From Domibacillus indicus (GTDB lineage Bacteria > Bacillota > Bacilli > Bacillales > Domibacillaceae): a DNA stretch of 50,952 nucleotides. Where the stretch lies: positions 1 to 50,952 of the forward strand of contig NZ_LAJB01000013.1 in NCBI RefSeq assembly GCF_000970685.1, written 5' to 3'. A model generated the notes under the pieces. The model saw only the letters and a list, made by a program, of their open reading frames with translations, did not search any database and was not told the origin of the DNA. A program made the translations under genes and the position numbers. Each line of letters opens with the position of its first letter. Positions within the stretch are counted from its first letter, which is position 1. This document shows positions 11-22,903 of this stretch, piece by piece.

Positions 11-775
11 TTATAGGAATGAATCTTTCATTTTCTTTCGGTTTTCTATGATCCGCTTCCATACACGCGGGTCAGACTGCATAAAGCCTCCGATGCCCGG
101 TGTAACATTTACTTCGAAAATAAAAGGCTTTAAGTGTTTATCCAGTCCAAGATCAACGCCGGCTTCCCGGGATGGATGCCGGGTCTTTACGATCCTGGCA
201 GCTGCAATTGAAACCTCCTCCAGCTCGGCTATCAAGCCTTGCTGTCTTTCTTTTTCTATATGAAGATAATGGGATAGCAGCTGCTGGGCGGGCACGGCAA
301 AAGCCCCGCGGCGTGTATTGGATATGCCGTTTTTTTCGCGGGCAATTGAACCGTAAATGCCTACTGCTGCTGTTTTGTCAATAAAGTGCTGAACATGGAC
401 CCGGATATTAACGGGCTCGCCGGAAACGGAAATACTGCCGATGCCCTCTTGAATAATATAGGGCCAGATACGCCCAAACCGTTCAAAAGGCTGAAGAAAT
501 TTATGAATTTCCGGCATATCCATTACATGGTCAATTTTTTTTCCTTGAAGTGTGTATCCTTTCAAAGAATAATGGCAGTCATCCCTTTTCTCCATTTTAT
601 ATACGCCTCTTCCCTGCCCGGAGGTATCATGCTTAACAAACACAACCGGATGGCGGCTGGTGAAGTCGGAGAGCTTTTCTTTTGTGTAGGGAGCTGTTTC
701 CGGAAGATGCTGCCGGACAAAGGGATCGCTTTGGAGAAGGTGGTATTGCGCAAGCTTTCCTAAAGCTTTGTTCAC
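11..775 (-). CDS. YheC/YheD family ATP-grasp protein (short form, downstream copy)
   Basis: The protein is a 254-residue ATP-grasp ligase-like protein of the YheC/YheD family, whose Bacillus members are described as spore-coat associated. Seen: a lysine in VVFVKHDTSGQGRGVYK near residue 45-60 (nucleotide-binding strand and glycine-rich loop), and near the C-terminus DLGLD followed by FEVNVTPG at about residue 220, the metal-binding E-x-N of ATP-grasp enzymes. I chose the GTG at 775 over the ATG at 793: AAAGGAAGTG lies just before it, and it aligns with the start of the paralogue upstream. The ATG version would put the ribosome binding site inside the gene. It lies 62 bp downstream of its paralogue on the same strand, probably in one operon. 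It is shorter than B. subtilis YheC/YheD because the usual N-terminal domain is missing. The substrate is unknown. Confidence 0.85.
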   Translation of the reverse strand: MNKALGKLAQYHLLQSDPFVRQHLPETAPYTKEKLSDFTSRHPVVFVKHDTSGQGRGVYKMEKRDDCHYSLKGYTLQGKKIDHVMDMPEIHKFLQPFERFGRIWPYIIQEGIGSISVSGEPVNIRVHVQHFIDKTAAVGIYGSIAREKNGISNTRRGAFAVPAQQLLSHYLHIEKERQQGLIAELEEVSIAAARIVKTRHPSREAGVDLGLDKHLKPFIFEVNVTPGIGGFMQSDPRVWKRIIENRKKMKDSFL

Positions 776-837
776 TTTTTCACTTCCTTTCATGCAGAGA
801 TTTTGAAGCTGGAAGCCTGCAGGCGTCAGCTGCAGAA

Positions 838-1695
838 TTAACGTAAATGAAAAAATTTCAAAAAAGAAGAAAGAGTACGCGGCTGAAAAAAAGGTGATTC
901 TTTTTTTGTTTCGCCGGCTGAAGCGGACGGATGCCTGGTCGATTCACCTATTTTTTTTCGGTTTTCGATAATTTGCTTCCACATCTGCTTGTCAATGCGT
1001 GCAAAATCTTCAATGCCTGGCGTAATATTCACTTCGAAAATATAAGGCTTCATATTTTCATCTAATCCAAGGTCAACACCGCATTCCCGGCACGGATAAT
1101 GGCTGGCGATGATTTCAGCGGCGGCGGCTGAGACTTCCATCAGTTTATTCAATATAGCAGGCTGGTCTTCTTTTTTTACTTTGAGGAAAATAAAAAATAA
1201 GTTTCGCATTGGCATCGCGTAAGCTCCGCGGCAGATGTTTGTAATGCCGTTTTCCTCGTAGGCGATCGAACCATAAATGCCCCCTACAACCGGTTTGCCT
1301 TCTACATGCTGGACATGGACACGGATATTCACATGCTGCCCCCGTGCACTGATACTGTTGATGCCCTGCTGGACGATGTAAGGCTGCGTCCGGCCAAATC
1401 GTTCAAAAGGCTGCAGCAGCTTATGAATGCTGTGAATGTCGAGTGTCTGGTCTACTTCTTTGCCCTGAAGGGAATAGCCTTTTAGAGAGTACAAATCAGC
1501 GGAAGTTTTTGTGAGTTTATAAACGCCTCTTCCTTGTCCGGATGTATTATGTTTTATAAACACCACCGGATAGCGGCCTGCAAAGTCAATTAGACTTTCT
1601 TTTGTATAAGGAGCTGTATCAGGAAGATGTTTAGAAACAAGAGGGTGATTTTGAAGCAGAAGGTGCTGCTCAAGCTTTCCAAGATTGATTCTCAT
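838..1695 (-). CDS. YheC/YheD family ATP-grasp protein (short form, upstream copy)
   Basis: A 285-residue paralogue of the next gene downstream; over half of aligned positions look identical by eye, so this is a tandem duplication. It carries the same landmarks: VVFIKHNTSGQGRGVYK, IRVHVQH, YGSIA, DLGLDENMKPYIFEVN near residue 220. The C-terminal 40 residues are extra relative to the paralogue and basic/aromatic. The start is the ATG at 1695 with AAGGAGGTGAA in front; an in-frame GTG at 1704 overlaps that ribosome binding site and is less likely. A SigK-like promoter at 1725-1754 would make this gene, and probably the following copy, a late mother-cell gene. Family knowledge suggests a coat-associated amide ligase; no substrate is established. 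Confidence 0.87.
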   Translation of the reverse strand: MRINLGKLEQHLLLQNHPLVSKHLPDTAPYTKESLIDFAGRYPVVFIKHNTSGQGRGVYKLTKTSADLYSLKGYSLQGKEVDQTLDIHSIHKLLQPFERFGRTQPYIVQQGINSISARGQHVNIRVHVQHVEGKPVVGGIYGSIAYEENGITNICRGAYAMPMRNLFFIFLKVKKEDQPAILNKLMEVSAAAAEIIASHYPCRECGVDLGLDENMKPYIFEVNITPGIEDFARIDKQMWKQIIENRKKIGESTRHPSASAGETKKESPFFQPRTLSSFLKFFHLR

Positions 1696-1724
1696 AGGGT
1701 TCACCTCCTTTTCTAGTTTACTGT

Positions 1725-1754
1725 TAGATTATGCTTTTTCAGCTTAATCGTGTG
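1725..1754 (-). promoter_or_regulatory. SigK-like sporulation promoter
   Basis: Read on the minus strand: CACA, a 16-nt spacer, then GCATAATCTA. This fits the B. subtilis SigK consensus (mACm, 16 nt, gCATAnnnTA) at every specified position. The start codon of the YheC-like gene lies 29 bp downstream, leaving room for a transcription start and the AGGAGG site. The match is seen; control by SigK is inferred. Confidence 0.65.
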
Positions 1755-1818
1755 GGTTAACTGGCAAGCAGAACATAGAAGAGCTAGATTTTATGCACAA
1801 ACAACCGCCCGCAGTGCT

Positions 1819-1828
1819 TCATATAATA
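1819..1828 (+). promoter_or_regulatory. Possible SigE/SigK -10 element before the MurF-like gene
   Basis: TCATATAATA fits CATAnnnTA of SigK and is close to the SigE -10 (CATACAnT). An AACA element lies 15 nt upstream, one base short of the preferred SigK spacing. It is about 20 bp from the ATG at 1849, so the transcript would have a very short leader. Weak evidence by itself, but it agrees with the sporulation theme of the neighbours. Confidence 0.35.
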
Positions 1829-1848
1829 AATGAGAAAGGAGGGGAACA

Positions 1849-3234
1849 ATGGAACCAATTCTGTTAAGTGATATTCGTGCTGTACTAGAAGGAGAGCTAA
1901 TTTCCGGTAAAGAAGATTGGTATGTGAAAAATGCCATCGTATACAATCGCCATGAATTGAACAAAACGCATACACTGATTTTTTTAAACAGAAAAGATTC
2001 TATTCACCGGGGCCATTTGGCGTCTGTGAAGCCCTGTACTGTTGTAACGGATAAACCGGTGGAGGAAGTGCGGCACCTGCTCGGCGAAACGGCAGTCATT
2101 CGTGTAAAAAGCGTTATTCAGTCTTATTGGACGTTTATCGACTATTACCGGTCGCTTTTTCATATTCCAGTTACAGCTGTTACCGGAACCTGCGGAAAAA
2201 CAACAGTTAAAGAAATGATTAAGCATATATTAAGTGCTTCCTACAATGTACAGGCGTCAGAAAGCAGCAAAAACGAACCGAGAAGGTCTTTTCACTACCT
2301 GCTGGGGATTGACCGCCAGACCGATATGGCTGTGTTTGAAACGGGGCTTGGGAATATAGGGAATATTAAGCACCAATGTCTTATTTATCAGCCCACTATA
2401 GGCATTATCACAATGATAGGTGCTCATCATTTAGACGGCTGTAAAACATTGGAAGGGTATATTCAAGCGAAAGGGGAAATTATTGAAGGAATAAAAGAAG
2501 GCGGCACGCTTATTTTAAATGCCGATGATGAAAATACTAAAAAGCTGTCGTTAACTTCATTTAAGGGCTGTCTGATTTATTTTGGATTAACTCATCAGGC
2601 CGAATTTCAGGCAGCGGATATCTTCTATACAAAAAATGGCATGGCTTTTACTCTTAAGCACCATAAACAAAAGCATCCTGTTTTTATTCCAGGGTACGGA
2701 GAGCACCAGGTATACAATGCATTGGCGGCCATTGCTGCTGTTCATCAAATGGGAATGAGCATCACTGAAGCGTCAGAAAGATTGGCATCATTCCGAAATA
2801 TGGAACGTCATCTTGAGGTGACAGGCGGAATAAACGGGAGTACCATCATTGACGATACATGGACGATCAATCCCGCTTCTGTAGAGGCAGCATTAAAAGT
2901 AGTAGATGAACTTGGAAAAAGCAAAAAAACCATTGTACTGCTGGGGGATATTAACCGTCTTGGCGATTACGAAAAGGAGTACCATCAAAAAGTAGGAAGC
3001 ATGGTAGCCGAAAGAAAATACAACACACTGGTAACAATTGGGGAAAAAGCAAAGGAAATCAGCCGCCAGGCAAAAAAAGACGGATTTACAGGAGATATTT
3101 ATCAATTTCAAACAGTAGAAGGTGTACTGGAAATGTTAAAAGAAAAAGTAGATAAACAGACACTGCTGCTTATTAAAGGGCCAATGAAAAGCCGTTCAAT
3201 GATCGAATTGGCAAAGCAGTTAAAAGAGCTTTAG
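1849..3234 (+). CDS. Stand-alone MurF-like Mur ligase
   Basis: A 461-residue Mur ligase superfamily protein, ATP-dependent amide-bond forming. Seen: the P-loop TGTCGKTTVKEM near residue 110-122, ETGLGNIGNI (acidic residue near the Mg/ATP site), HLDGCKTLEGYIQAKGEI, the NADDEN motif, GEHQVYNALAAIAA (as in MurF) and a C-terminal domain with DDTWTINPASVEAAL, matching the DDTYNANP region of MurF. The N-terminal domain of about 100 residues differs from housekeeping MurF. Its position among ATP-grasp genes, away from any dcw cluster, argues that it is not the cell-wall MurF but a specialised ligase adding an amino acid or peptide to a carboxylate. The ATG has AAAGGAGGGG in front. The acceptor is unknown. 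Confidence 0.85.
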   Translation: MEPILLSDIRAVLEGELISGKEDWYVKNAIVYNRHELNKTHTLIFLNRKDSIHRGHLASVKPCTVVTDKPVEEVRHLLGETAVIRVKSVIQSYWTFIDYYRSLFHIPVTAVTGTCGKTTVKEMIKHILSASYNVQASESSKNEPRRSFHYLLGIDRQTDMAVFETGLGNIGNIKHQCLIYQPTIGIITMIGAHHLDGCKTLEGYIQAKGEIIEGIKEGGTLILNADDENTKKLSLTSFKGCLIYFGLTHQAEFQAADIFYTKNGMAFTLKHHKQKHPVFIPGYGEHQVYNALAAIAAVHQMGMSITEASERLASFRNMERHLEVTGGINGSTIIDDTWTINPASVEAALKVVDELGKSKKTIVLLGDINRLGDYEKEYHQKVGSMVAERKYNTLVTIGEKAKEISRQAKKDGFTGDIYQFQTVEGVLEMLKEKVDKQTLLLIKGPMKSRSMIELAKQLKEL

Positions 3235-3286
3235 TGCCGGGCCTTTTGTTTCAATAAATAATAAAAAAAGAAAATAAATGAAATAC

Positions 3287-3329
3287 ATGGGAAACCCGGA
3301 AACAACTACTAAGGGTTTCCCATTCTTTT
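3287..3329 (+). terminator. Rho-independent terminator after the MurF-like gene
   Basis: Perfect 11-bp stem ATGGGAAACCC / GGGTTTCCCAT with a 15-nt loop, followed by TCTTTT. It separates the Mur ligase from the NlpC/P60 gene, so that gene needs its own promoter. Confidence 0.85.
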
Positions 3330-3382
3330 GGATGTTAGAATAGACATTGTTCATTGAAACAAAACATGTTCAGGAGGCACCA

Positions 3383-4288
3383 ATGAAAAAACAAATTGTT
3401 ACTACAGCTCTTGCATCGATAGTTGCTTTCTCAGGAATGACTGCCGCAGGCATTGACCAGCCGCAGGTACAAGCTGCTGCCGTTACTCAAAACAATCAGG
3501 CGGCTGTTGAAGCCAAAGCAAATCAATTGATCAGCACAGCAAAAGGATTAATGGGAAAAGCGACATACAGCACTGCCGTTTATAAAAAAACAGCACCTTA
3601 TAAATTTTCATGCGCTACGTTCTTAAACTTTATTTTTGAAAAAGAAGGTGTCGATCTTGCCACATATAATGAAAATTATATGATGAAGCAGGGTACAGCC
3701 GTATCAAAAGCAAACTTGCAAAAAGGAGATCTTGTATTTTTCGACAGCAACCGAAACGACAGTGAACCTGCAGACCATGTTGGTATGTACATAGGGGATA
3801 ACAAGATCATTCACATGGCTGATTCCAAACAAAACATTGTGATCTCGGATTTGGACAGCAAAGCGTATTACCGGGATAACTATTTAACGGCAAGACGCGT
3901 ACTGCCTACATTAATGTCAGGCAGCCCGGCAACAAAAGGGGATAAAGTGGTTGCTTCTGCGTACAGCCTGATGAGCAGCTCGCAATCTTCTTCTTTAACA
4001 AATGCCGGCTTTGTGAATCGTGTGTTCCAGAATAACGGCATTCAGCTTGGAACAACTAGTTTAAAAGAACAAATGAAAAAAGGGACCTTTGTTTCAAAAA
4101 GCCAGCTGAAAAAAGGTGATATCGTCTTTTTTAATGGTACGCCAGGATCAAAAACTCCTTCTCTGGCAGCTGTTTATGCCGGTGACCATCGACTCGTTAT
4201 GAAAACATCAGAAGGTGTTGTTTCCCGTGTTATATTCGTTGATTGGTACGAGCAGCACTATCTAACTGCAAGACGTGTAATCAAATAA
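3383..4288 (+). CDS. Secreted tandem NlpC/P60 protein with a degenerate second domain
   Basis: A 301-residue protein with a signal peptide (MKKQIV, then a hydrophobic stretch ending near AAAV). Two NlpC/P60 modules follow. Domain 1 (about residues 50-185) keeps the catalytic set: Cys77 in FSCATF and His132 in DHVGMYIG. Domain 2 (about 195-301) has Asn207 where the cysteine belongs (LTNAGF) and Leu261 where the histidine belongs (SLAAVYAG), so it is probably non-catalytic, perhaps a binding module. Family enzymes cleave D-gamma-glutamyl bonds in peptidoglycan peptides, and some act on poly-gamma-glutamate. Start: ATG at 3383 behind CAGGAGG; an upstream in-frame ATG at 3347 would spoil the signal peptide. 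It has its own transcription unit between two terminators. The neighbouring ligases make its substrate worth testing. Confidence 0.85.
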   Translation: MKKQIVTTALASIVAFSGMTAAGIDQPQVQAAAVTQNNQAAVEAKANQLISTAKGLMGKATYSTAVYKKTAPYKFSCATFLNFIFEKEGVDLATYNENYMMKQGTAVSKANLQKGDLVFFDSNRNDSEPADHVGMYIGDNKIIHMADSKQNIVISDLDSKAYYRDNYLTARRVLPTLMSGSPATKGDKVVASAYSLMSSSQSSSLTNAGFVNRVFQNNGIQLGTTSLKEQMKKGTFVSKSQLKKGDIVFFNGTPGSKTPSLAAVYAGDHRLVMKTSEGVVSRVIFVDWYEQHYLTARRVIK

Positions 4289-4311
4289 CGAAAACTGATG
4301 CCAATCATTTG

Positions 4312-4340
4312 AAAAGCAGCATTGTGCTGCTTTTTTTTTT
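4312..4340 (+). terminator. Rho-independent terminator after the NlpC/P60 gene
   Basis: AGCAGCA / TGCTGCT stem with a TTG loop, extended by A-T pairs and followed by ten T residues. Confidence 0.85.
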
Positions 4341-4391
4341 GCTTTAAATAACGGAAGGCAGGTCGAATGACCATGCAAAATTCCAGTGATC

Positions 4392-4401
4392 TCATACCCT
4401 A
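4392..4401 (+). promoter_or_regulatory. Possible SigK/SigE -10 element before the ATP-grasp gene
   Basis: TCATACCCTA fits CATAnnnTA. I found no good mACm -35 at 15-17 nt upstream, so this is only suggestive. It lies about 45 bp before the GTG start at 4445. Confidence 0.25.
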
Positions 4402-4444
4402 TATAGAAACCTGAATGCTGTTTAAAAATAGGGAGGCATGATTC

Positions 4445-5668
4445 GTGAAAACCATAGTGTTTATCGGGTTAAATAAATCAGGTTCCAGCAGAGAAGCGGT
4501 AAAAGCCGCTGAAAAACTGGGGTATTTCACAGTGGTTTTTACAAACAGAGAACGGCAGCTGGAACAGCGGGAGGAATACCCGGATGTGCATCAACTTGTT
4601 TTACTGGACATAGATGATATCGGTGTGTTAAAAACACATATCACTGCACTGCAACACAAAGGACATACGATTTCGGCCGTCACTAGTTTTGTTGACCAGT
4701 ATGTTCATACAGCCTCGCAGCTTGCTGACGAATTTTATGATAACTGTTTATCAACCGATGCTATTTTTATTATGGAAAATAAGGAGGAAACAAGGGAGTT
4801 TCTTTCAAACGAGCCGTATACACCTGCTTTTTTGCTGGTAGACAAAAGCACCCCTGCTTCAGCCATTGCTTTCCCGGATAATCTAACATATCCGGTCATG
4901 GTAAAATGCCCTAAATCAACTGGCTCTAAAGATGTTATTTTTGCGGCAGATAAAGAAGAAGTAAGGAAAAGTACATCAAAATTAAAAGACAAGTACCCTG
5001 ATGAAACGCTCATTATTGAGGAATATATTAGTGGCGAACAATATTTAGTAGAAGTGATTGTATACAAGGGGAAAATTATAACTGCTGCTATTATTGAGCA
5101 GGAAATTACAAGAGGGAAGCGGTTTATTGTAACAGGCTATGGCGTGCTGGCCGATGTTGCGCCGGAGATTGAAGAAAGCATTGGAGAAATTACTCAATCC
5201 ATAGTTACTGCCCTGGATATCGAAAACGGTGCTTTTCATCTGGAATTAAGAAAGACGGAAAACGGGTGGAAGCTGATCGAAATTAACCCGAGAATTTCAG
5301 GCGGCGCCATGAATAAAATGATTGAAGCTGCATTCGGCTACAGTTTAGTAGAAGAGACGCTTAAGATGTTAACCGGGGAAGCTCCTTGTTTAGAAAAGAA
5401 AAAAAGCCGTTTTGTTTTTACACAGCATGTTATTGTCGGGCAAAAAGGAATATTGGAGAGAGTCACCGGGAAAAACAGGGCGTCAAAATCACCGGGAGTA
5501 GAAGAGGTATATGTAAAGCCAAGGAGGGGGACACTGCTTATTCCTCCATTATCAATGGGACACCGCTATGCGTACGTAATTGCAGCAGGGAATACTATGC
5601 AGGAGGCGAAGGAATTCGCCAAAACAGCAGCCCGGGAAATTCAATTTTATTTAAGAACAGAACAATAA
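4445..5668 (+). CDS. ATP-grasp carboxylate-amine ligase-like protein
   Basis: A 407-residue ATP-grasp protein of the carbamoyl-phosphate-synthase-like/L-amino-acid-ligase type. Seen: an N-terminal Rossmann-like segment (TIVFIGLNKSGSS), then an ATP-grasp domain with VMVKCPKSTGSKDV (ATP-binding Lys), LIIEEYISGEQYLVEV, FHLELR and EINPRISGGAMN near residue 280, carrying the metal-binding E-x-N. The C-terminal part (about 310-400) resembles the lid of amino-acid ligases. It is a different ATP-grasp family from the YheC/YheD genes around it. The GTG start has GGGAGG eight bases upstream. Such enzymes join an amino acid to a carboxylate via an acyl-phosphate. The specificity cannot be read from sequence. 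It is followed by a strong terminator. Confidence 0.85.
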   Translation: MKTIVFIGLNKSGSSREAVKAAEKLGYFTVVFTNRERQLEQREEYPDVHQLVLLDIDDIGVLKTHITALQHKGHTISAVTSFVDQYVHTASQLADEFYDNCLSTDAIFIMENKEETREFLSNEPYTPAFLLVDKSTPASAIAFPDNLTYPVMVKCPKSTGSKDVIFAADKEEVRKSTSKLKDKYPDETLIIEEYISGEQYLVEVIVYKGKIITAAIIEQEITRGKRFIVTGYGVLADVAPEIEESIGEITQSIVTALDIENGAFHLELRKTENGWKLIEINPRISGGAMNKMIEAAFGYSLVEETLKMLTGEAPCLEKKKSRFVFTQHVIVGQKGILERVTGKNRASKSPGVEEVYVKPRRGTLLIPPLSMGHRYAYVIAAGNTMQEAKEFAKTAAREIQFYLRTEQ

Positions 5669-5703
5669 CAGCAAGCCCCCCTCTAGTGGCGGGCTTGTTG
5701 TTT
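5669..5703 (+). terminator. Rho-independent terminator after the ATP-grasp gene
   Basis: CAAGCCC / GGGCTTG stem closing over CCCTCTAGTGGC, followed by TTGTTTT. Confidence 0.8.
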
Positions 5704-5712
5704 TATGCTGCC

Positions 5713-5795
5713 GAAAAAGAGCCGTCAAGAAAATACTCCGTTTTTGAACTGAAATTGTTTTCTTCTTATGGGCTATAAATGAGCTGTTTTCTTCT
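5713..5795. repeat. Dispersed intergenic repeat, copy A (with internal 48-bp insert)
   Basis: Contains GAAAAAGAGCCGTCAA at 5713-5728 and, after 48 bp, a 19-nt block (AAATGAGCTGTTTTCTTCT) at 5777-5795. The same two blocks occur adjacent to each other at 19841-19876. Both copies start just past a transcription terminator. No coding potential is evident. Confidence 0.6.
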
Positions 5796-5810
5796 GATTT
5801 CAACAGAATG

Positions 5811-5852
5811 AAAAACGACAAGCCCTCCTCAGGGGGCTTGTCGTTTTTAAAG
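5811..5852. terminator. Bidirectional terminator between convergent genes
   Basis: ACGACAAGCCC / GGGCTTGTCGT stem (11 bp) flanked by A-rich and T-rich runs on both sides. It sits between the plus-strand ATP-grasp gene and the end of the minus-strand fusion gene. Confidence 0.85.
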
Positions 5853-5901
5853 AGTGCGGGGACAATAATTAAAAGATCATTTTGTTTTACATGGGAAGTT
5901 C

Positions 5902-8073
5902 CTATTTTACTCCGTAAGCCGTGTCTAAAAAAGCAACCGTGTCAAACATATTTGTTTTGCTTGCTCCTTTTACAAGAATGGTGTCCTTTTCTTGCAGAAT
6001 TTCCCGCAGATAGTCATGCATTTCTTCTTTGTTCAAAAAGTGTTTAACGGCTTTCTCTGGAAAAGAAGCATTTATTGCCCCTGCTCCAATAGCGTCTGCT
6101 CTATAACCATACGTAATAATCAAATCGATATTTTGCCCGGCGAGGTATTCGCCGACTTTTTTGTACTGTGCATCCCGCAGATCGCCAAGCTCCCTCATCT
6201 GGCCCAGTATCGCAATTTTTCTGGCGGGTGCAATATTTTTCAAAACATCGATTGCCGCCATAACTGCCTGGGGATGAGAATGCACAGTGTCATCGATCAG
6301 TGTCATGTTATCCTTTAAATGATAAATAGTCATCCGGCGGGGCGGCTTCCGGAACAAAAGCCCGGATTTTATTTCAAGCGGCGAGAATCCTAAATAATCA
6401 GCAATCGCCACCGCATTTAATGCATTGTAGACATGATGCTCACCAAAAATCGGAATAAAGAATTGATGATTTTCCCCGCGAATAGTCATTTTAAAATTCA
6501 TTCCGTTTGAAGTGTATGTTACATCATGCGCCTGGTAATCAGCGGGCCTGCGTATACCGGTAGTTATTATTTTTCCGCGAAACTGGCCGGTTTCCAGATA
6601 AGCGGAATTTTCGTCGTCCGCATTTAAAAAAAGGATGCCATCCTGCTTCATTCCGTGAATCAATTCCGACTTCGCATGGGCGATGCCGCGGATATCGCCA
6701 TCAAAATTGCCGATATGTGCCATGCCGATATTTGTGACAACACTTATGTTTGGCTGAATAATTTCGCAGTGTTCGGTAATAACGCCGGGATACGCCATCC
6801 CATATTCAAGAACGACTGCTTCGTGAGCAGAGTCAATTTCCTCCGCATGCTTTTTCGTATGCTCGGTTGTATTCCAGTAATCTTTGGATTCAAACACATT
6901 CATTCTTGTTTTTAATATGGAGGACACAAATGCTTTTGTGGTTGTTTTGCCGGCACTCCCTGTTATCGCGATAATCGGAATTTTATTGATATCCAATTCT
7001 TTTTTCTTTCTTTGCTGAATTTCTTTTTTAATTTGATCCTGGTTTTTTGCCAGATAAAGGGCGTAGTGAATTGTATTTTTTACTACATCCATTTCCAAAT
7101 AAAAAGCAGGCGGGCAGCCGGGACGCCAGTTTACTTCATAGATCCAGATCTTTTGATTCTGGTCGAAGCCAATATCAATTCCGAGTTCATCAATAACTTC
7201 CTGGTATTCACGCATTTGAAGTTCATCAAGATGGCGGGCCAGTGAAAGAGAAAAATGCTCAAGCCTCCGCTTAACGTTAAATGCCTCATCTTTGCTAAAC
7301 TCCTGCTTTAAAAAAGGCTCTAAATAGTTTGTATAGCCGCCGTTGTTAATGTTAGTTACAATGGTTCCTTCAGGGGCGACACGCGGGTAAATCGCTGTAA
7401 TAACCCATTTTCCTTCTCCGTTTTTTTGGACATGAAGCCGGAAATCATAAGCAAGGCCGGCTTTTGTCCGGCTGTTGATATAGGGCTGGATAATAAAAGT
7501 ATTTTCCTTTAAAAGCGGATCAAAGAAAGAAGCCAGCTCCCCCTGGCTGTAATGAACGTCAGCCGAGTCTTTATTTACTACATAACGGCTGCCGTCCAGG
7601 TGGATAAAATAAATGCCCTGTCCTTTTCTTCCATCAATCGGTTTTACAATTACATGATGAAAAGCATTCATAAAGTGAAAAATGTCATTTGAATTTTTTA
7701 CTGTTTTAGTTGGAATTAAATAGCCCGCAAATTCTTTTCCTTCTTTTAGTCTTTCATTTACATTCCACTTGTTCCCAATTGAATGAGTAGTAAAAGGAAT
7801 CATCTCTTTCAGCTTTTGAACGACACTTTTTGCTTTTGCTAACTTTTCAGGACTGCCAGCGTTATAAATCACATCCGGAAACGGTACGGTCTGCTCTTTC
7901 CAGGTGCCGTTTTCATATACCTGCCCCTTGATGCGCTTCGTGACAAAGTTAACACAGCCAGGCGAGAAATAAACAAAGCCGGCGCCTTCTGCTTGAGCGA
8001 CAATGGCATAAGCATAGGACTTGATCACGGTTGTCGGATCTTTTCTATGGTGAAGCATACCAATCAGCGTCAA
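5902..8073 (-). CDS. YheC/YheD ATP-grasp fused to a Mur ligase (cyanophycin-synthetase-like architecture)
   Basis: A 723-residue two-enzyme fusion. Residues 1 to about 345 form a full-length YheC/YheD protein: MLHHRKDP, a YFSPGCVNF segment, ATP-grasp motifs HHVIVKPIDGRKGQGIYF, FRLHVQ, IGFDQNQKIWIYEVNWRPG. Residues from about 360 to 723 form a Mur ligase: P-loop AITGSAGKTTTKAF near 368-378, EYGMAYPG, IGMAHIGNF, NADDEN, FGEHHVYNALNAVA, DDTVHSHPQAV, and a C-terminal MurF-like domain ending with ILVKGASKTN. ATP-grasp followed by Mur ligase is the order of cyanophycin synthetase CphA, but the ATP-grasp half belongs to the spore-coat family. Both active sites look intact. The TTG start has AAGGAGAGGGG before it. 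It is divergent from the CotY/Z-like gene. The product is unknown; an amide-linked peptide or polymer is an inference. Confidence 0.88.
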   Translation of the reverse strand: MTLIGMLHHRKDPTTVIKSYAYAIVAQAEGAGFVYFSPGCVNFVTKRIKGQVYENGTWKEQTVPFPDVIYNAGSPEKLAKAKSVVQKLKEMIPFTTHSIGNKWNVNERLKEGKEFAGYLIPTKTVKNSNDIFHFMNAFHHVIVKPIDGRKGQGIYFIHLDGSRYVVNKDSADVHYSQGELASFFDPLLKENTFIIQPYINSRTKAGLAYDFRLHVQKNGEGKWVITAIYPRVAPEGTIVTNINNGGYTNYLEPFLKQEFSKDEAFNVKRRLEHFSLSLARHLDELQMREYQEVIDELGIDIGFDQNQKIWIYEVNWRPGCPPAFYLEMDVVKNTIHYALYLAKNQDQIKKEIQQRKKKELDINKIPIIAITGSAGKTTTKAFVSSILKTRMNVFESKDYWNTTEHTKKHAEEIDSAHEAVVLEYGMAYPGVITEHCEIIQPNISVVTNIGMAHIGNFDGDIRGIAHAKSELIHGMKQDGILFLNADDENSAYLETGQFRGKIITTGIRRPADYQAHDVTYTSNGMNFKMTIRGENHQFFIPIFGEHHVYNALNAVAIADYLGFSPLEIKSGLLFRKPPRRMTIYHLKDNMTLIDDTVHSHPQAVMAAIDVLKNIAPARKIAILGQMRELGDLRDAQYKKVGEYLAGQNIDLIITYGYRADAIGAGAINASFPEKAVKHFLNKEEMHDYLREILQEKDTILVKGASKTNMFDTVAFLDTAYGVK

Positions 8074-8248
8074 GTGAATTCCCCTCTCCTTAAATAAAAA
8101 CTCTCTCTTAGTAAATGCAACTCAAAGATGTTATGTGAAAAATCAAAGAAAAAGAACAGCTCAGTCCTAAAATGATCAAGTAGGCTTTTTCACCTCTTTC
8201 GGAACGCTGAAATATTCTATAAATAAAAGCAATGCAGGAGGGAAGGCT

Positions 8249-8677
8249 ATGCAGCATCGTCACAGAAGCAGTTTAAAGTATTTCTTACATGCTTTAAAAG
8301 AGCAGCAGGACCAGCTGAAAGGGCTGAAAACGGATATTTGCAGCAGCCTTTTGGCAAAGCTTTTTAATGGAGATACCATCCCCATCATGATTAAGGTGGA
8401 TGGAGAATATTATGAAGCTGCTGTCATGAAAGGCAGCCGTTTGCTTCGCACAAAATATTTCCGTATTGAAACAATTGATGAAGAAAACGATACTGTGACC
8501 CTTTTATTGCTGGAGCCTCTCGATATGGGCAATGGGTTCGCGGCTTCTTTTAACGAGCTTTATCGTTTAGAAAAAACCAGCATGTCTATCACATTGTATA
8601 TAAACCGGATCAGTGCAGTTCAATGCCTCGATATCGAGCTTATGACCAAAAAGATGGTTATTGAGCCAAAATGGTGA
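8249..8677 (+). CDS. CotY/CotZ-like spore coat protein, cysteine-poor
   Basis: A 142-residue protein. The order of segments (LLAKLFNGDTIPIMI, YFRIETIDEENDTVTLLLL, YRLEKTSMSITLYIN, ISAVQCLDIELM) follows that of CotY/CotZ as I recall it (GDTVPF, FFRVERV..TLSLLI, FRLEKTNYCIEVDL, AINCLNPRLI). CotY/CotZ form the cross-linked outer coat/crust and are cysteine-rich; this protein has only two cysteines, so disulfide lattice formation would be limited. The ATG follows GCAGGAGGG. A weak SigK-like arrangement (CACC, 17 nt, ATATTCTATA) lies upstream. It is divergent from the ATP-grasp/Mur fusion, supporting a spore-envelope role for the cluster. The family call rests on pattern recognition without a database search. 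Confidence 0.7.
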   Translation: MQHRHRSSLKYFLHALKEQQDQLKGLKTDICSSLLAKLFNGDTIPIMIKVDGEYYEAAVMKGSRLLRTKYFRIETIDEENDTVTLLLLEPLDMGNGFAASFNELYRLEKTSMSITLYINRISAVQCLDIELMTKKMVIEPKW

Positions 8678-8866
8678 TTTTCTTTATCTAAGCTGAATGG
8701 GCTTTTTACACCGACCTTTACGATCATAAGTCATTTGTTCAGTGCTTAAGGCAGGCAGATTCCTGTATGTAAGCTGAACAGGCCGGGCGAGGCCGCTTCT
8801 TGAAACAGGCGATTTTTTTTAATGTTTGCTACACTGTTTATAACAAGAAGCGGAGGAAGGAATTAT

Positions 8867-10597
8867 ATGAGTCGTGTTTGGTCGCTGTTAATGCCATACC
8901 GGGCCAGAATGGCGTTTGCCTGGGGGCTGATGCTGCTGGAGCTTGCTGTAGAGCTGGCATTGCCGGTGTTAATGGCGAAAATGGTTGATGATGGCATTGT
9001 CGCAGGAGAAATGAAAGCTATTTTGTATTGGGGCAGTATTATGATTGGGCTGTCGCTGTTTTCTTTCACAGCTGGCATTACCAATTCGTTTATTGCCGCC
9101 CGGATCGGCCAGGATTATGGATTTGATATTCGAAAAGAGCTGATTGAAAAAGTACAGTCTTTTTCATTTGGCCAGTACGGCCATTTCGATACATCCACGC
9201 TGATCACCCGGATGACCAACGATGTAACCCAGCTTCAGAATGCGGTTTTTATGAGCCTGCGGATTATGCTGCGTGCTCCTCTTATGATTATTTTTGGTAC
9301 GGCTATGGCGCTGTTTGTCCACTTTAAGCTGTCGCTTGTTTTGCTTGTGACGGTACCGGTTATGACTTTTTTTATGCTGTTTATGATGAGAAAAGGGGCA
9401 GGCATGTTCAGCCTCGTCCAGCTGAAGCTCGATAAAGTAAACAGTGTTATGCGTGAAAACCTGGCTGGTATCCGCTTGATTAAAGCGTTCGTGCGAAGCG
9501 GCCGTGAAATATCACGCTTTGGCCATGCGGGAAAAGATCTTATGAACCAGACGATCCAGGTTATTCGCACATTTGAAAGCATTGTCCCCATTTTGCTGCT
9601 TGTTATGAACGGCGGCCTTATTTTTATTTTGTGGTTCGGTTTTGTTGAAATGCAAAACGGAACAGCTACAACAGGCGAAATTGTAGCCATTATTAATTAT
9701 GCAGCACGCATTATTATTTCCCTGTCCATTTTTACCTTTATCACACTTGCTTTTGCGCGCGGAAAAGCGTCTGCTGCCCGGATTGATGAAGTATTAACGG
9801 TTGAACCGGAAGAGCTGAAGGCCGTAACAGAAGAATATCCAGCAGACGGTGACATTCTCTTTAATGATGTCACCTTTACATACCCGGGCGGAAAGGCGCC
9901 GGTGCTCCAGTCACTGTCGATGAAGGTGAAGCGCGGCAGTATGGCGGCGATTTTAGGGGAGACGGGCTCCGGCAAGTCGGCCTTGCTTTCTCTTATTCCG
10001 CGCTTGTATGAGCCGGACAGCGGATCGATTGCAATCGGCGGGCGTGATATAAGCAGAATGGATGTCCGAAGGCTGCGCCATAAAATCGGCTTCGTGCCGC
10101 AGGAGTCGCATTTGTTTACAGGCTCCATTACGGACAATATCCGCTGGGGGAAAAAAGACGCCACAGAGGAAGAAATTACAGAAGCAGCAAAAAAAGCGCA
10201 AATTCATGAAACCATTGCTGCGCTGCCGGATGGGTACGACACAATAATCGGGCAGAAAGGTGTAACGTTATCAGGAGGACAGAAACAGCGGTTATCCATC
10301 GCACGGGCTCTTATCCGAAAGCCGGATATCCTGCTGCTTGACGACAGCACAAGTGCTCTTGATGTAAAAACGGAAGGAAGGCTTATAGAAGCCATTACAT
10401 CCGAGGAATGCACCATTTTTATCGTGACCCAAAAAATTTCAACCGCAGAACAGGCAGATTGCATTTTTATGATTGAGGAAGGGAAAGCAGCTGTTTCCGG
10501 AACACATCGTGAGCTGGCACGCAAACATGATTTGTATAAACGGCTGATGGAGTCTCAGGGCAGAAAGGGCGGGGCATATGAAGCATCCGGGCAGTAA
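8867..10597 (+). CDS. ABC exporter subunit with degenerate ATPase site (heterodimer partner 1)
   Basis: A 576-residue half-transporter: an N-terminal six-helix exporter membrane domain (about 1-300) and an ATPase domain. Seen: Walker A GETGSGKSA near 364, signature LSGGQKQR, Walker B ILLLDDSTSALD with Asp493 where the catalytic Glu normally is, and Gln522 in place of the switch histidine (VTQKIST). These substitutions mark the non-hydrolysing site of heterodimeric exporters such as BmrCD and TM287/288. The next gene overlaps by 20 bp and supplies the partner. Start: ATG at 8867 behind CGGAGGAAGG; an in-frame ATG at 8822 has no ribosome binding site. Related to B. subtilis YheI/YfiB-type proteins; substrate probably a drug or lipid, not determinable here. 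Confidence 0.9.
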   Translation: MSRVWSLLMPYRARMAFAWGLMLLELAVELALPVLMAKMVDDGIVAGEMKAILYWGSIMIGLSLFSFTAGITNSFIAARIGQDYGFDIRKELIEKVQSFSFGQYGHFDTSTLITRMTNDVTQLQNAVFMSLRIMLRAPLMIIFGTAMALFVHFKLSLVLLVTVPVMTFFMLFMMRKGAGMFSLVQLKLDKVNSVMRENLAGIRLIKAFVRSGREISRFGHAGKDLMNQTIQVIRTFESIVPILLLVMNGGLIFILWFGFVEMQNGTATTGEIVAIINYAARIIISLSIFTFITLAFARGKASAARIDEVLTVEPEELKAVTEEYPADGDILFNDVTFTYPGGKAPVLQSLSMKVKRGSMAAILGETGSGKSALLSLIPRLYEPDSGSIAIGGRDISRMDVRRLRHKIGFVPQESHLFTGSITDNIRWGKKDATEEEITEAAKKAQIHETIAALPDGYDTIIGQKGVTLSGGQKQRLSIARALIRKPDILLLDDSTSALDVKTEGRLIEAITSEECTIFIVTQKISTAEQADCIFMIEEGKAAVSGTHRELARKHDLYKRLMESQGRKGGAYEASGQ

Positions 10598-12302
10598 TCC
10601 AGGCGGCAAAAAGCCGAAAATCAATAATTTGTCCGTTACCTTAAAACGGATTGGCCGTTATTTATTTAAGCGAAAGAGCAAACTGCTTTTAACCATGATG
10701 ATGGTAGCGCTCAGCTCTGCCCTTGCACTGGCAGGTCCGTTTTTAATCGGAGTGGCAATTGATGATTATATTGCATCCGGCGATGAGCGGGGTTTGAGCT
10801 GGCTGCTGGCAGGCCTTGCGCTTGTATACATTGGATATTCACTTGTTTCTTTTTTGCAAAACTACTGGATGGCAGAGGTTGCCCAAAAAACGGTGTATGA
10901 ATTGCGGGATGACCTGTTCCGGCATTTTCATAAGCTGCCGGTTTCATTTTTTGATAAGCGCCGCCACGGTGAATTGATGAGCCGGGTGACAAATGATATT
11001 GATAATATCAGCAGCACACTGAACAGTTCTATTATCCAGGTAGCTTCGGGATTATTAACCCTTCTTGGCTCCATTGCAGTCATGCTTTATTTAAGCCCGG
11101 TCCTGACACTGATCACGCTGCTGATTATTCCTCTTATGTTCGGCGGTATGAAATGGATTACCAATCGGACAGGTCCAAGGTTCAAAGAGCAGCAGCGTCA
11201 TCTTGGTGATTTAAATGGCTTCATTGAAGAAGCCATTTCAAGCCGCCATATCGTCAAAATGTTTTCGCGTGAGGACGAAATGATCGGTGAGTTTATGGAA
11301 AAAAATGACCGGCTCCGGGAAGCCGGCTATTTGGCCCAGGCATATTCAGGTTTTATTCCAAAATTAATGAACCTGCTCAATAACACAGGCTTCGCCGTTA
11401 TTGCGCTGGCCGGCGGGATTCTGGCATTGAATGGACAGGCGTCAGTCGGCACCATTGTCATCTTTACAGAGTACGCCCGCCAGTTTACCCGGCCGCTGAA
11501 TGATCTTGCCAACCAGTACAATACGATGCTGTCAGCTGTCGCAGGGGCAGAACGTGTTTTTGATATTATGGACACAAGGGAAGCGGTCGACAGAAAAGAG
11601 AGCAGGCAGCATCAATTGTCCGGCCATGTTGTGTTTAACAATGTTGCATTTTCTTATGAAGAAGGGAAGCCGACTCTTTCCAACGTGTCATTTCAAGCGG
11701 AGGCTGGTGAAACAATTGCGCTAATCGGACCGACCGGATCAGGCAAAACAACAATTATGAATTTGCTCGCCCGGTTTTACGAGCCGGCCGGCGGAGCCAT
11801 TTTATTTGACGGCGTAGACAGCCGGGAAATAGCCGGTTCCGCGCTGCGCCGCCAGATGGGCTTTGTTCTTCAGGATACCGTTTTGTTTGAAGATACAGTG
11901 ATGGAAAATATCCGCTACGGCCGGCTTGATGCGACAGACGATGAAGTGATTGAAGCAGCGAGAAAAGCAAATGCCCACACGTTTATTATGCGGATGCCGG
12001 ATGGATATGCATCAAAGCTGAGCCAGGATGGATCGGGCATCAGCCAGGGGCAGAGGCAGCTTCTTTCCATTGCACGAGCCATTTTAGCTGATCCGGTGAT
12101 ATTGATTTTAGACGAGGCAACAAGCAGCATCGACACGATTACGGAGCTTCATATTCAAGAAGCGCTTGGCCGGCTGATGGAAGGGCGGACCAGTTTCGTT
12201 ATTGCTCACCGTCTGAATACAATCCAGCATGCCGACCAGGTGATCCGCCTGAGAAATGGTGCCATTGAAGCCATTGGCACCTATGAGAATGTAGTCGAAT
12301 AG
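10578..12302 (+). CDS. ABC exporter subunit with canonical ATPase site (heterodimer partner 2)
   Basis: A 574-residue half-transporter: membrane domain about 25-320, then an ATPase domain with Walker A GPTGSGKTT, Walker B ILILDEATSSID (catalytic Glu present) and switch histidine IAHRLNT. Its signature is ISQGQRQ near residue 487 instead of LSGGQ. In the antiparallel dimer this altered signature faces the degenerate Walker site of the first subunit, so both defects fall on the same nucleotide site, as expected for an asymmetric heterodimer. It overlaps the upstream gene by 20 bp, indicating translational coupling. Similar to B. subtilis YfiC/YheH-type partners. Confidence 0.9.
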   Translation: MKHPGSNPGGKKPKINNLSVTLKRIGRYLFKRKSKLLLTMMMVALSSALALAGPFLIGVAIDDYIASGDERGLSWLLAGLALVYIGYSLVSFLQNYWMAEVAQKTVYELRDDLFRHFHKLPVSFFDKRRHGELMSRVTNDIDNISSTLNSSIIQVASGLLTLLGSIAVMLYLSPVLTLITLLIIPLMFGGMKWITNRTGPRFKEQQRHLGDLNGFIEEAISSRHIVKMFSREDEMIGEFMEKNDRLREAGYLAQAYSGFIPKLMNLLNNTGFAVIALAGGILALNGQASVGTIVIFTEYARQFTRPLNDLANQYNTMLSAVAGAERVFDIMDTREAVDRKESRQHQLSGHVVFNNVAFSYEEGKPTLSNVSFQAEAGETIALIGPTGSGKTTIMNLLARFYEPAGGAILFDGVDSREIAGSALRRQMGFVLQDTVLFEDTVMENIRYGRLDATDDEVIEAARKANAHTFIMRMPDGYASKLSQDGSGISQGQRQLLSIARAILADPVILILDEATSSIDTITELHIQEALGRLMEGRTSFVIAHRLNTIQHADQVIRLRNGAIEAIGTYENVVE

Positions 12303-21889: not shown

Positions 21890-22903
21890 TCAATCAATAT
21901 AGCGTCTCGCCCCGGCATATTCTTGTTTATAGGGAGCTGTATCCATCGGTATAATTTCAACTTTTTTCCCGGCTTTGGGCGAGTGGATCATTTTGCCGTT
22001 TCCGGCATACATGGCAACGTGGTGAACACGGCCTTTTCCATTATTATAAGCAAAAAATAACAAATCACCCGGCTTCAGTGCTGACTTTGTCACAGCTTTT
22101 CCTGCTTTCGCCTGCTCGGATGCATCCCGTGGAATTTGGATTCCGTGGTACCGGTAAACAGATGAGGTAAAGCCTGAACAATCGTAGCCGTAGGCAGACA
22201 CCCCTGACCATAAGTACGGAAGGCCTAAAAACTGCTTTCCGGTTGTCAGCAAGGCCGTTCCGGCCGGTTTAGGAATAACCGTGCCCGAACCAAGGATGCG
22301 GATATCATTTTTTTTCAGCCATTTGGTGCCATTTGACGGTGTCACCACCTGCACCCAGCTTGCTTCTGATTTGATAATGGGCAGCTCTGTGTTAAAGCTC
22401 AATTCCATAAAAGCTGTTTTTTTGTCGTGATACAAAACAGCGGTCTTTGATTTGATGCTTGCCGTCTGGCAGGCCTCGTATGCGGCGGCCCGTGACGTTA
22501 TTTGCGCCTTCGGGAGCCAGCCCGGATATCCTTTGCTGTTTTTAGCAGTGGTTTGGTCTTTGACCGCTACCTGTGCCCAGCTGCCGCTTGTTTTTAAAAT
22601 GGTAACTTCCTGTCCGTACAGCGCCTGAGTTTCGGCTTTTCCTGTAAGCCAGAGACGGTCTTTGACAGCAGACATTTTAGCTGTCCATGCTTTCATGTTG
22701 ACAGGAGTGGAAAGAACATATTGGTCCATTTGCCGTTTTGCGCCTGGTTCTTTCCACAAAGTAGCAACAGAAACATTAATATATGTTTTCTTAACAGCTG
22801 TCTTTGCAGAACAATCGGAAGAAGCTGCATTTGAATAGGAAGGGACGAGTGAAAGTGCCAGTACGAAAAACATGATTGCGATCATCACCTTTTTAAAGGC
22901 CAT
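21890..22903 (-). CDS. YkfC-like gamma-D-glutamyl-L-amino acid peptidase
   Basis: A 337-residue exported protein with a signal peptide (positive start, hydrophobic core, cleavage near SNAA), two SH3b-like domains (about 40-210) and an NlpC/P60 domain (about 220-337). The catalytic set is intact: Cys242 in YDCSGF, His295 in HHVAMYAG, and the later His in MIHSPKAG. It matches the YkfC architecture, enzymes that trim gamma-D-Glu-L-diamino acid dipeptides from released wall peptides. B. subtilis YkfC sits in a peptide-recycling operon; no such partners are visible here. Start: ATG behind GAGGAG. Confidence 0.87.
   Translation of the reverse strand: MAFKKVMIAIMFFVLALSLVPSYSNAASSDCSAKTAVKKTYINVSVATLWKEPGAKRQMDQYVLSTPVNMKAWTAKMSAVKDRLWLTGKAETQALYGQEVTILKTSGSWAQVAVKDQTTAKNSKGYPGWLPKAQITSRAAAYEACQTASIKSKTAVLYHDKKTAFMELSFNTELPIIKSEASWVQVVTPSNGTKWLKKNDIRILGSGTVIPKPAGTALLTTGKQFLGLPYLWSGVSAYGYDCSGFTSSVYRYHGIQIPRDASEQAKAGKAVTKSALKPGDLLFFAYNNGKGRVHHVAMYAGNGKMIHSPKAGKKVEIIPMDTAPYKQEYAGARRYID

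Follow-up and report, generated by a model that had tools for sequence, protein, structure and literature searches.

A candidate sporulation-linked cluster of amide ligases with a YheC/D-Mur ligase fusion in Domibacillus indicus and its relatives

Introduction

Cyanophycin synthetase CphA1 (TIGR02068), whose defining product is the beta-Asp-Arg polymer, combines in one chain an ATP-grasp domain followed by a Mur ligase that lacks the UDP-binding domain. Here, we describe a fusion protein with the same domain order, F, and the island of seven genes (A to G) that encodes it, at positions 11 to 8677 of a stretch of DNA from Domibacillus indicus (RefSeq assembly GCF_000970685.1, contig NZ_LAJB01000013.1). 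This stretch, hereafter the window, comprises the first 50,952 bases of its contig in a host genome of 3.6 Mb; as the window begins at the contig start, the left edge of the island is cut. Unlike CphA1, F carries an ATP-grasp half of the YheC/D type and a MurF-like Mur half, and the island provides separate partner ligases. We lean, if only slightly, toward the view that the island is a sporulation-specific mother-cell cluster whose non-ribosomal product, a peptide or poly-amino-acid with amide linkages, is destined for the spore envelope.

YheC and YheD of Bacillus subtilis (PF14398) belong to the same ATP-grasp family as A, B, and F. In that species, yheC and yheD are sigma-E genes whose expression is raised by SpoIIID (PMC517825), and YheD, a coat protein of unknown function, forms a shell around the spore (PMC7911427). 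In the island, by contrast, this domain is either fused to a Mur ligase (F) or stands alone (A and B), and it is clustered with L-amino-acid ligase (LAL) and MurF-like genes. CphA possibly acts in the assembly of the Clostridium perfringens spore, as cited in PMC5532821; the same source reports three tandem genes annotated as CphA in the spore former Bacillus horikoshii 20a, which are said there to be devoid of the residues for arginine incorporation, and it is by this description only that we liken them to the island. A pangenomic study sets CphA, as an ATP-grasp/Mur fusion, against the other Mur-domain families it treats (PMC11915815).

Two further systems invite comparison. The MurF and Ddl pair also unites an ATP-grasp dipeptide ligase with a MurF-type ligase and shares the Mur catalytic residues with the island, in which, however, an LAL stands in place of Ddl and the TDGH and YNASP motifs are lost or replaced. 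BacD-like L-amino acid ligases have the domain composition of E (with LAL_C2) but are distant from it, and E sits in a sporulation-linked cluster. Work by Iyer on amidoligases from 2009 reportedly predicted spore-wall roles for YheC/D-type ATP-grasps. No description of the cluster was found in the literature searched, where most subscription papers lay outside reach.

Results

Pfam models support all seven genes of the island (Table 1). Their products comprise three ATP-grasp domains of the YheC/D type and one of the LAL type, two MurF-like ligases, an NlpC/P60 protein, and a weak relative of CotZ. The gene and domain inventory of a preliminary description of this DNA is thereby confirmed, and so are the intact active-site motifs it had reported, as the catalytic residues are kept in our ATP-grasp, Mur, and NlpC/P60 alignments. 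The amide-ligase chemistry it had put forward likewise agrees, at the level of sequence, with the Pfam domains and the preserved Mur catalytic residues.

A, B, and F score above the PF14398 cut-off, carry the catalytic E-x-N, and are the sole three YheCD matches in the host genome (E 0.001), all of them inside the island. While the ATP-grasp domain alone makes up A and B, it precedes the Mur ligase in F in the order of cyanophycin synthetase, a trait that the preliminary description had not mentioned. The ATP-grasp of F is nevertheless of another family: TIGR02068 matches only the Mur part of F, with 66.8 bits, and its cut-off of 850 bits is not reached. Across the 40 fusions that form our alignment A1 (out of 71 fusion open reading frames, ORFs), E313 and N315 of the ATP-grasp are invariant, and E[VIL]NxxP[GA] is matched by all 24 short YheC/D proteins, A and B included. 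YheCD proteins also weakly match the models of tubulin-tyrosine ligase (TTL) and RimK. Most structure-match rows for F span residues 360-722 only, the ATP-grasp half being hardly compared by itself.

The presence of a true cyanophycin synthetase was considered and rejected, as no TIGR02068 match above cut-off was obtained in 13 genomes; the best partial match (257 bits, in genome G026) comprises the ATP-grasp part only, and the cluster is on a different contig. A cyanophycin cycle was rejected as well, there being no cyanophycinase match in the host genome.

Two proteins of related loci show further arrangements of the YheC/D domain. One ORF (L068:15747-17063) contains two PF14398 stretches, and the full-length YheC/D proteins of the cluster look like tandem ATP-grasps whose first copy is degenerate. 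In another (L060:19587-21677), a YheC/D ATP-grasp is fused behind a complete UDP-glucose/GDP-mannose dehydrogenase, which suggests that a uronic acid undergoes amide coupling in a related island.

Eight Mur ligase domains are encoded in the host genome, two of them in the island, and the true MurF sits elsewhere, beside a Ddl-like ORF (named by eye). By profile and fold, MurF is the nearest Mur family to the ligases of the island; the TIGR01143 (MurF) cut-off of 288.6 bits is reached neither by C (262.4 bits) nor by F (262.0 bits). For a comparison of residues in the MurF numbering of L005, we set 15 true MurF proteins of relatives against 66 stand-alone ligases of type M1, 56 of type M2, to which C belongs, and 40 fusion domains. 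The Walker A lysine (K117), E164, H194, K208, N289, and D335 are kept in 100% of the rows of all three types and H285 in at least 98%; the Walker A motif, the Mg-binding Glu/His, and the carbamylated Lys of the Mur superfamily are present in M1, M2, and the fusions. At the UDP-MurNAc site, 66/66 M1 and 56/56 M2 proteins have gaps in place of the Gly and His of TDGH, a loss that had escaped the preliminary description, and the UDP-MurNAc-binding domain 1 is absent in 40/40 fusions. The DSR motif is altered, with its Arg still present in 95% of M2, and so is the NYNN stretch, whose second Asn is retained in all three types. At the YNASP position, M1 mostly has WSITT, M2 WTNNP, and F VHSHP (62 to 100% conserved per position). 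In a tree built from samples of the M1, M2, and fusion sequences, the three form clades separate from MurF, with long-branch warnings on the deeper joins. Since the catalytic residues are kept and the substrate motifs are type-specific, we read M1, M2, and F as three putative substrate specificities on working catalytic frames. Canonical MurF identity was rejected on the grounds of the lost TDGH motif and the location of the true MurF elsewhere.

The partner proteins are related to known families to very different degrees. E has the ATP-grasp plus LAL_C2 composition of L-amino acid ligases and matches three solved members of that group at 2.2e-11 to 8.3e-8 (2.2e-11 and 1.1e-10 among them), its top match overall being a phosphoribosylglycinamide synthetase entry (1.2e-11). 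D and its relatives combine PF00877 with the catalytic Cys89 (66 of 67 sequences) and His144 (all 67); because D contains no Cys besides Cys89, its second repeat is devoid of one, and its N-terminus looks, by eye, like a signal peptide. G exceeds the PF10612 cut-off of 24 bits weakly, and 22 of the 24 aligned G proteins, including that of the window, match this model (E 0.01; best E 1.5e-12). It stays far under the NCBIfam CotZ_rel cut-off (23.4 versus 90), and a stronger CotZ match (126.8 bits) is encoded elsewhere in the host genome. A small Cys protein of about 147 residues starting with MGxxCPCGV (e.g., L061:15277-15720) occurs in 30 of 72 related loci, usually between M1 and YheC/D, and is possibly a structural partner or substrate of the cluster; with 18 members aligned, no Pfam family was found below E 0.01, and one NCBIfam model matched one member (0.0011). 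Outside the island, at positions 21890-22903, the window encodes another NlpC/P60-like protein, which has a DCSG motif (named by eye).

A pattern scan with F over 84,980 species genomes, which recovers close relatives only, matched 82 stretches, 72 of which encode F relatives. They stem from Domibacillus, Neobacillus, Psychrobacillus, Sporosarcina, Lysinibacillus, Lederbergia, Solibacillus, Jeotgalibacillus, Heyndrickxia, Metasolibacillus, Brevibacillus, and others named Bacillus. An unbroken fusion is encoded in 69 of the 72 loci; in the others it is cut by a contig end (L128), in pieces (L120), or split into two adjoining genes (Brevibacillus L129). Synteny was counted in 63 loci, nine being left out owing to too little flank or a broken fusion. 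Alongside F, these loci contain LAL1 (63), NlpC/P60 (60), M1 (58), the CotZ-like gene (57), M2 (52), full-length YheC/D (33), LAL2 (32), the small Cys protein (28), and short YheC/D (14); as these classes rest on BLAST thresholds (M1/M2 split at 51% identity, LAL1/LAL2 at 50%), a few ligases, e.g., in Lederbergia, are possibly mis-sorted. The commonest order, found in 18 loci, is G, F, LAL1 (reverse), M1, M2, NlpC/P60 (reverse), followed by LAL2, G, F, LAL1 (reverse), M1, full-length YheC/D, M2, NlpC/P60 (reverse) in 15 loci. In the window and three named Domibacillus loci the set is shorter: M1 and LAL2 are absent, and G is inverted. Of five loci of the host's family with an unfused YheC/D gene, L050, L051, and L054 have LAL genes alongside, and L053 and L056 have none. 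Genes for small multidrug-type transporters (16 loci) and betaine-type ABC transporters (17 to 21 loci) flank some, mostly Lysinibacillus, loci. In one relative (L046:6647-10853), the YheC/D-Mur gene is split by a two-gene insertion resembling IS21 (named by eye).

Such synteny across 63 loci led us to reject a chance neighborhood. The preliminary description had proposed a conserved neighborhood and had named a lack of conservation in relatives as the outcome that would speak against it; the 69 of 72 unbroken fusions and the invariable presence of LAL1 bear out its expectation. Its link to sporulation also finds support. We drew 151 genomes from the family of Lysinibacillus sphaericus and called a fusion when the first 391 residues of F matched within an open frame of at least 707 residues. 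The fusion is present in 41 genomes, and 17 more have a shorter YheC/D match. SpoIVA is encoded in 116 of the 151 genomes (three of the matches being fragments): it occurs in 41/41 fusion genomes versus 75/110 others, and 0/35 genomes without SpoIVA have the fusion. One of these latter genomes, G058, has a weak match inside an 833-residue frame.

Upstream regions were scanned with the generally known consensus forms of the sigma factors. The -10 motif CATANNNTA precedes M1 in 44/71 cases (shuffled mean 7.1, antisense 12), LAL2 in 24/41 (3.1, 7), G in 23/64 (3.1, 3), M2 in 29/58 (5.3, 8), LAL1 in 22/70 (7.3, 32), and short YheC/D in 9/24 (1.8, 6), compared with 10/237 control ORFs, whose starts were uncorrected, whereas those of the cluster genes were homology-corrected. 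The high antisense count at LAL1 results from the divergent orientation of M1. The motif prefers distances of 30-39 bases in M1 (35 of 44) and M2 (19 of 29), of 40-49 bases in LAL2 (17 of 24), and of 40-59 bases in LAL1 (18 of 22), while the hits of G are scattered. The full sigma-K pattern, which includes AC, is enriched for LAL2 (12/41; shuffled 0.4), M2 (13/58; 0.6), LAL1 (5/70; 0.9), and short YheC/D (5/24; 0.3), and the sigma-E pattern for G (18/64; 3.1). Motifs for sigma-A and sigma-G/F show no clear excess upstream of the cluster genes. Relatives of D lack an excess of both the sporulation -10 motif (3/69; shuffled mean 4.7) and sigma-A-like motifs. An ACCAT box is conserved ahead of LAL1 in many loci (4369-4374 in the window). 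It precedes the -10-like element by about 21 bases, a spacing too wide for a usual sigma-K -35, and is perhaps a regulator site.

Table 1. Genes and promoter-like elements of the island (positions refer to the window).
Feature	Position	Strand	Evidence
A, short YheC/D-type ATP-grasp ligase	11..775	-	PF14398 E 1.3e-39; longest ORF 11-793
B, short YheC/D-type ATP-grasp ligase	838..1695	-	PF14398 E 6.6e-42; longest ORF to 1704
C, stand-alone MurF-like ligase, type M2, UDP-MurNAc TDGH motif lost	1849..3234	+	Mur_ligase_M and Mur_ligase_C; M2 is one tree clade
D, NlpC/P60 protein, second repeat without Cys	3383..4288	+	PF00877
E, LAL-type ATP-grasp (LAL1)	4445..5668	+	PF18603 (LAL_C2) 1.3e-19; PF13535 (ATP-grasp_4) 5.5e-18
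F, YheC/D ATP-grasp (about 1-345) fused to MurF-like ligase domains 2 and 3 (about 360-723)	5902..8073	-	PF14398 E 1.8e-64; Mur_ligase_M and Mur_ligase_C
G, diverged CotZ-like spore coat protein	8249..8677	+	PF10612 26.2 bits
Sigma-K-like promoter of B, AC-N16-CATAATCTA	1725..1751	-	-10 fits CATANNNTA in 4/4 aligned Domibacillus loci
Sigma-K-like promoter of C, AC-N17-CATATAATA	1801..1828	+	-10 identical in 3/4 Domibacillus loci, CATATCCTA in L059
Sigma-E/K-like -10 element CATACCCTA upstream of E, no -35 at usual distance	4393..4401	+	fits CATANNNTA in 4/4 Domibacillus loci
Sigma-K-like promoter of F, AC-N17-CATTTACTA, one mismatch	8109..8136	-	-10 is CATYTACTA in 4/4 Domibacillus loci
Sigma-K-like promoter of G, AC-N17-AATATTCTA, one mismatch	8192..8219	+	-10 is AATANNNTA in 4/4 Domibacillus loci

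Discussion

The proposed assignment of the island to a mother-cell pathway for the spore envelope draws on the coating of the spore by YheD, the sigma-E control of yheC and yheD, and the possible role of CphA in C. perfringens spore assembly. In the route that we infer, including its substrates, the order of its steps, and the polymeric nature, timing, and deposition site of its product, the LAL-type enzyme E would join two amino acids via an acyl-phosphate, by analogy with the formation of D-Ala-D-Ala by Ddl. An amino acid or dipeptide would be coupled to a carboxylate of an acceptor other than UDP-MurNAc by the MurF-like ligases, namely C, the C-terminal half of F, and, in most relatives, M1. 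Further residues would be added by the YheC/D domains of A, B, and the N-terminal half of F. As both of its ligases share one chain in cyanophycin synthetase order, F probably performs two additions in turn on a single growing chain. The product would then be placed on the forespore surface together with the CotZ-like G.

The preliminary description had already suggested a spore-envelope peptide, and conserved synteny, promoter motifs, SpoIVA co-occurrence, and ligase chemistry support this part of its proposal. The sporulation promoter it had postulated is matched by elements in front of B, C, E, F, and G, albeit imperfectly in some cases (Table 1), but not by the relatives of D. Its further idea, a trimming of a gamma-glutamyl product by the NlpC/P60 protein, finds no support: D is syntenic (60 of 63 loci) but lacks the sporulation motif, and nothing indicates a gamma-glutamyl product.

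Several observations weigh against an envelope pathway of this kind. The cluster is patchily distributed: full-length F is encoded by 5 of 24 genomes from the family, 4 of 13 from the genus, and 10 of 398 from the class, and in one further genome (G273) its two halves lie next to each other. The hypergeometric p of 2.5e-6 for fusion and SpoIVA ignores kinship, and the 75 SpoIVA-bearing genomes without the fusion mean that sporulation does not need the cluster; the fusion is hence an accessory of sporulation rather than a requirement. M1, despite its -10 motif, shows no excess of the full sigma-K (1/71; shuffled 1.1) or sigma-E (5/71; 7.1) pattern, and there is little -10 excess for F (6/71; 3.9) and none for full-length YheC/D (1/38; 1.4); we attribute the weak signal of the latter two to operons. 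The conserved core of the 63 loci contains no transporter gene, and a cyanophycinase partner is missing from the matches in the host genome.

Instead of building a separate product, the ligases might modify the side chains or C-terminus of a coat protein, such as G or the small Cys protein, as TTL and RimK modify theirs. The weak YheCD matches to the models of these two enzymes would fit this function, as would the presence of G in 57 of 63 loci and the EPKW ending of 16 of the 24 aligned G proteins. However, the other 8 end differently, the profile of the Cys protein found no match in 24 genomes of the host's family (a search without positive control), and Mur-type ligases generally act on small carboxylate acceptors; we consider a modification of coat proteins unlikely. 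The cluster could, alternatively, make a small soluble peptide during sporulation, a dipeptide antibiotic, osmolyte, or germination modulator, rather than an envelope component. Bacilysin-type dipeptides are known products of LAL enzymes, solved L-amino acid ligases are among the matches of E, nothing among the cluster genes is specific to a polymer, and multidrug- and betaine-type transporter genes flank some loci. Yet these transporters fall outside the conserved gene order, the CotZ-like gene is linked in most loci, and several different ligases exceed the needs of a dipeptide, which renders this possibility quite improbable in our view.

A spore-specific route to peptidoglycan precursors for the cortex, with MurF-like enzymes joining dipeptides from the LAL enzymes to UDP-MurNAc peptides, draws on the proximity of the ligases to MurF, on the affiliation of NlpC/P60 with a wall-hydrolase family, and on the Arg of DSR that M2 retains. 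The missing TDGH of M1 and M2, the absence of domain 1 from F, and the changes in other substrate motifs contradict it, as does the real MurF encoded elsewhere beside its Ddl-like neighbor, and we judge such a route very unlikely. Our preference consequently stays with the cluster as the source of an envelope peptide or poly-amino-acid: it is apparently active during spore building, and its product is probably a peptide-like substance, hitherto undescribed, that goes into the spore shell.

F would add a second ATP-grasp/Mur fusion architecture besides CphA. More tentatively, and with considerable doubt, we propose that Bacillaceae, Planococcaceae, and Brevibacillus possess a second ATP-grasp/Mur synthetase outside the cyanophycin synthetase family, fused in most and split in Brevibacillus, that polymerizes a so far undescribed polyamide, branched or alternating, into a structural spore layer, and thereby gives the YheC/YheD coat proteins an enzymatic meaning. 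YheC/D domains are here fused to, and grouped with, apparently competent amide ligases, several of which have promoters of the mother-cell type; this suggests that some members of the family, at least, are enzymes that produce a non-protein constituent of the spore envelope.

With respect to gene starts, ribosome-binding sites read by eye make GTG 775 the more likely start of A, preferred over that of the longest ORF, and likewise favor ATG 1695 for B and ATG 3383 for D. Adjoining G, two overlapping ABC transporter genes extend over positions 8822-12302 of the window. The same transporter family is found in the three named Domibacillus loci and in Psychrobacillus L066, and thus in five loci when the window is counted.
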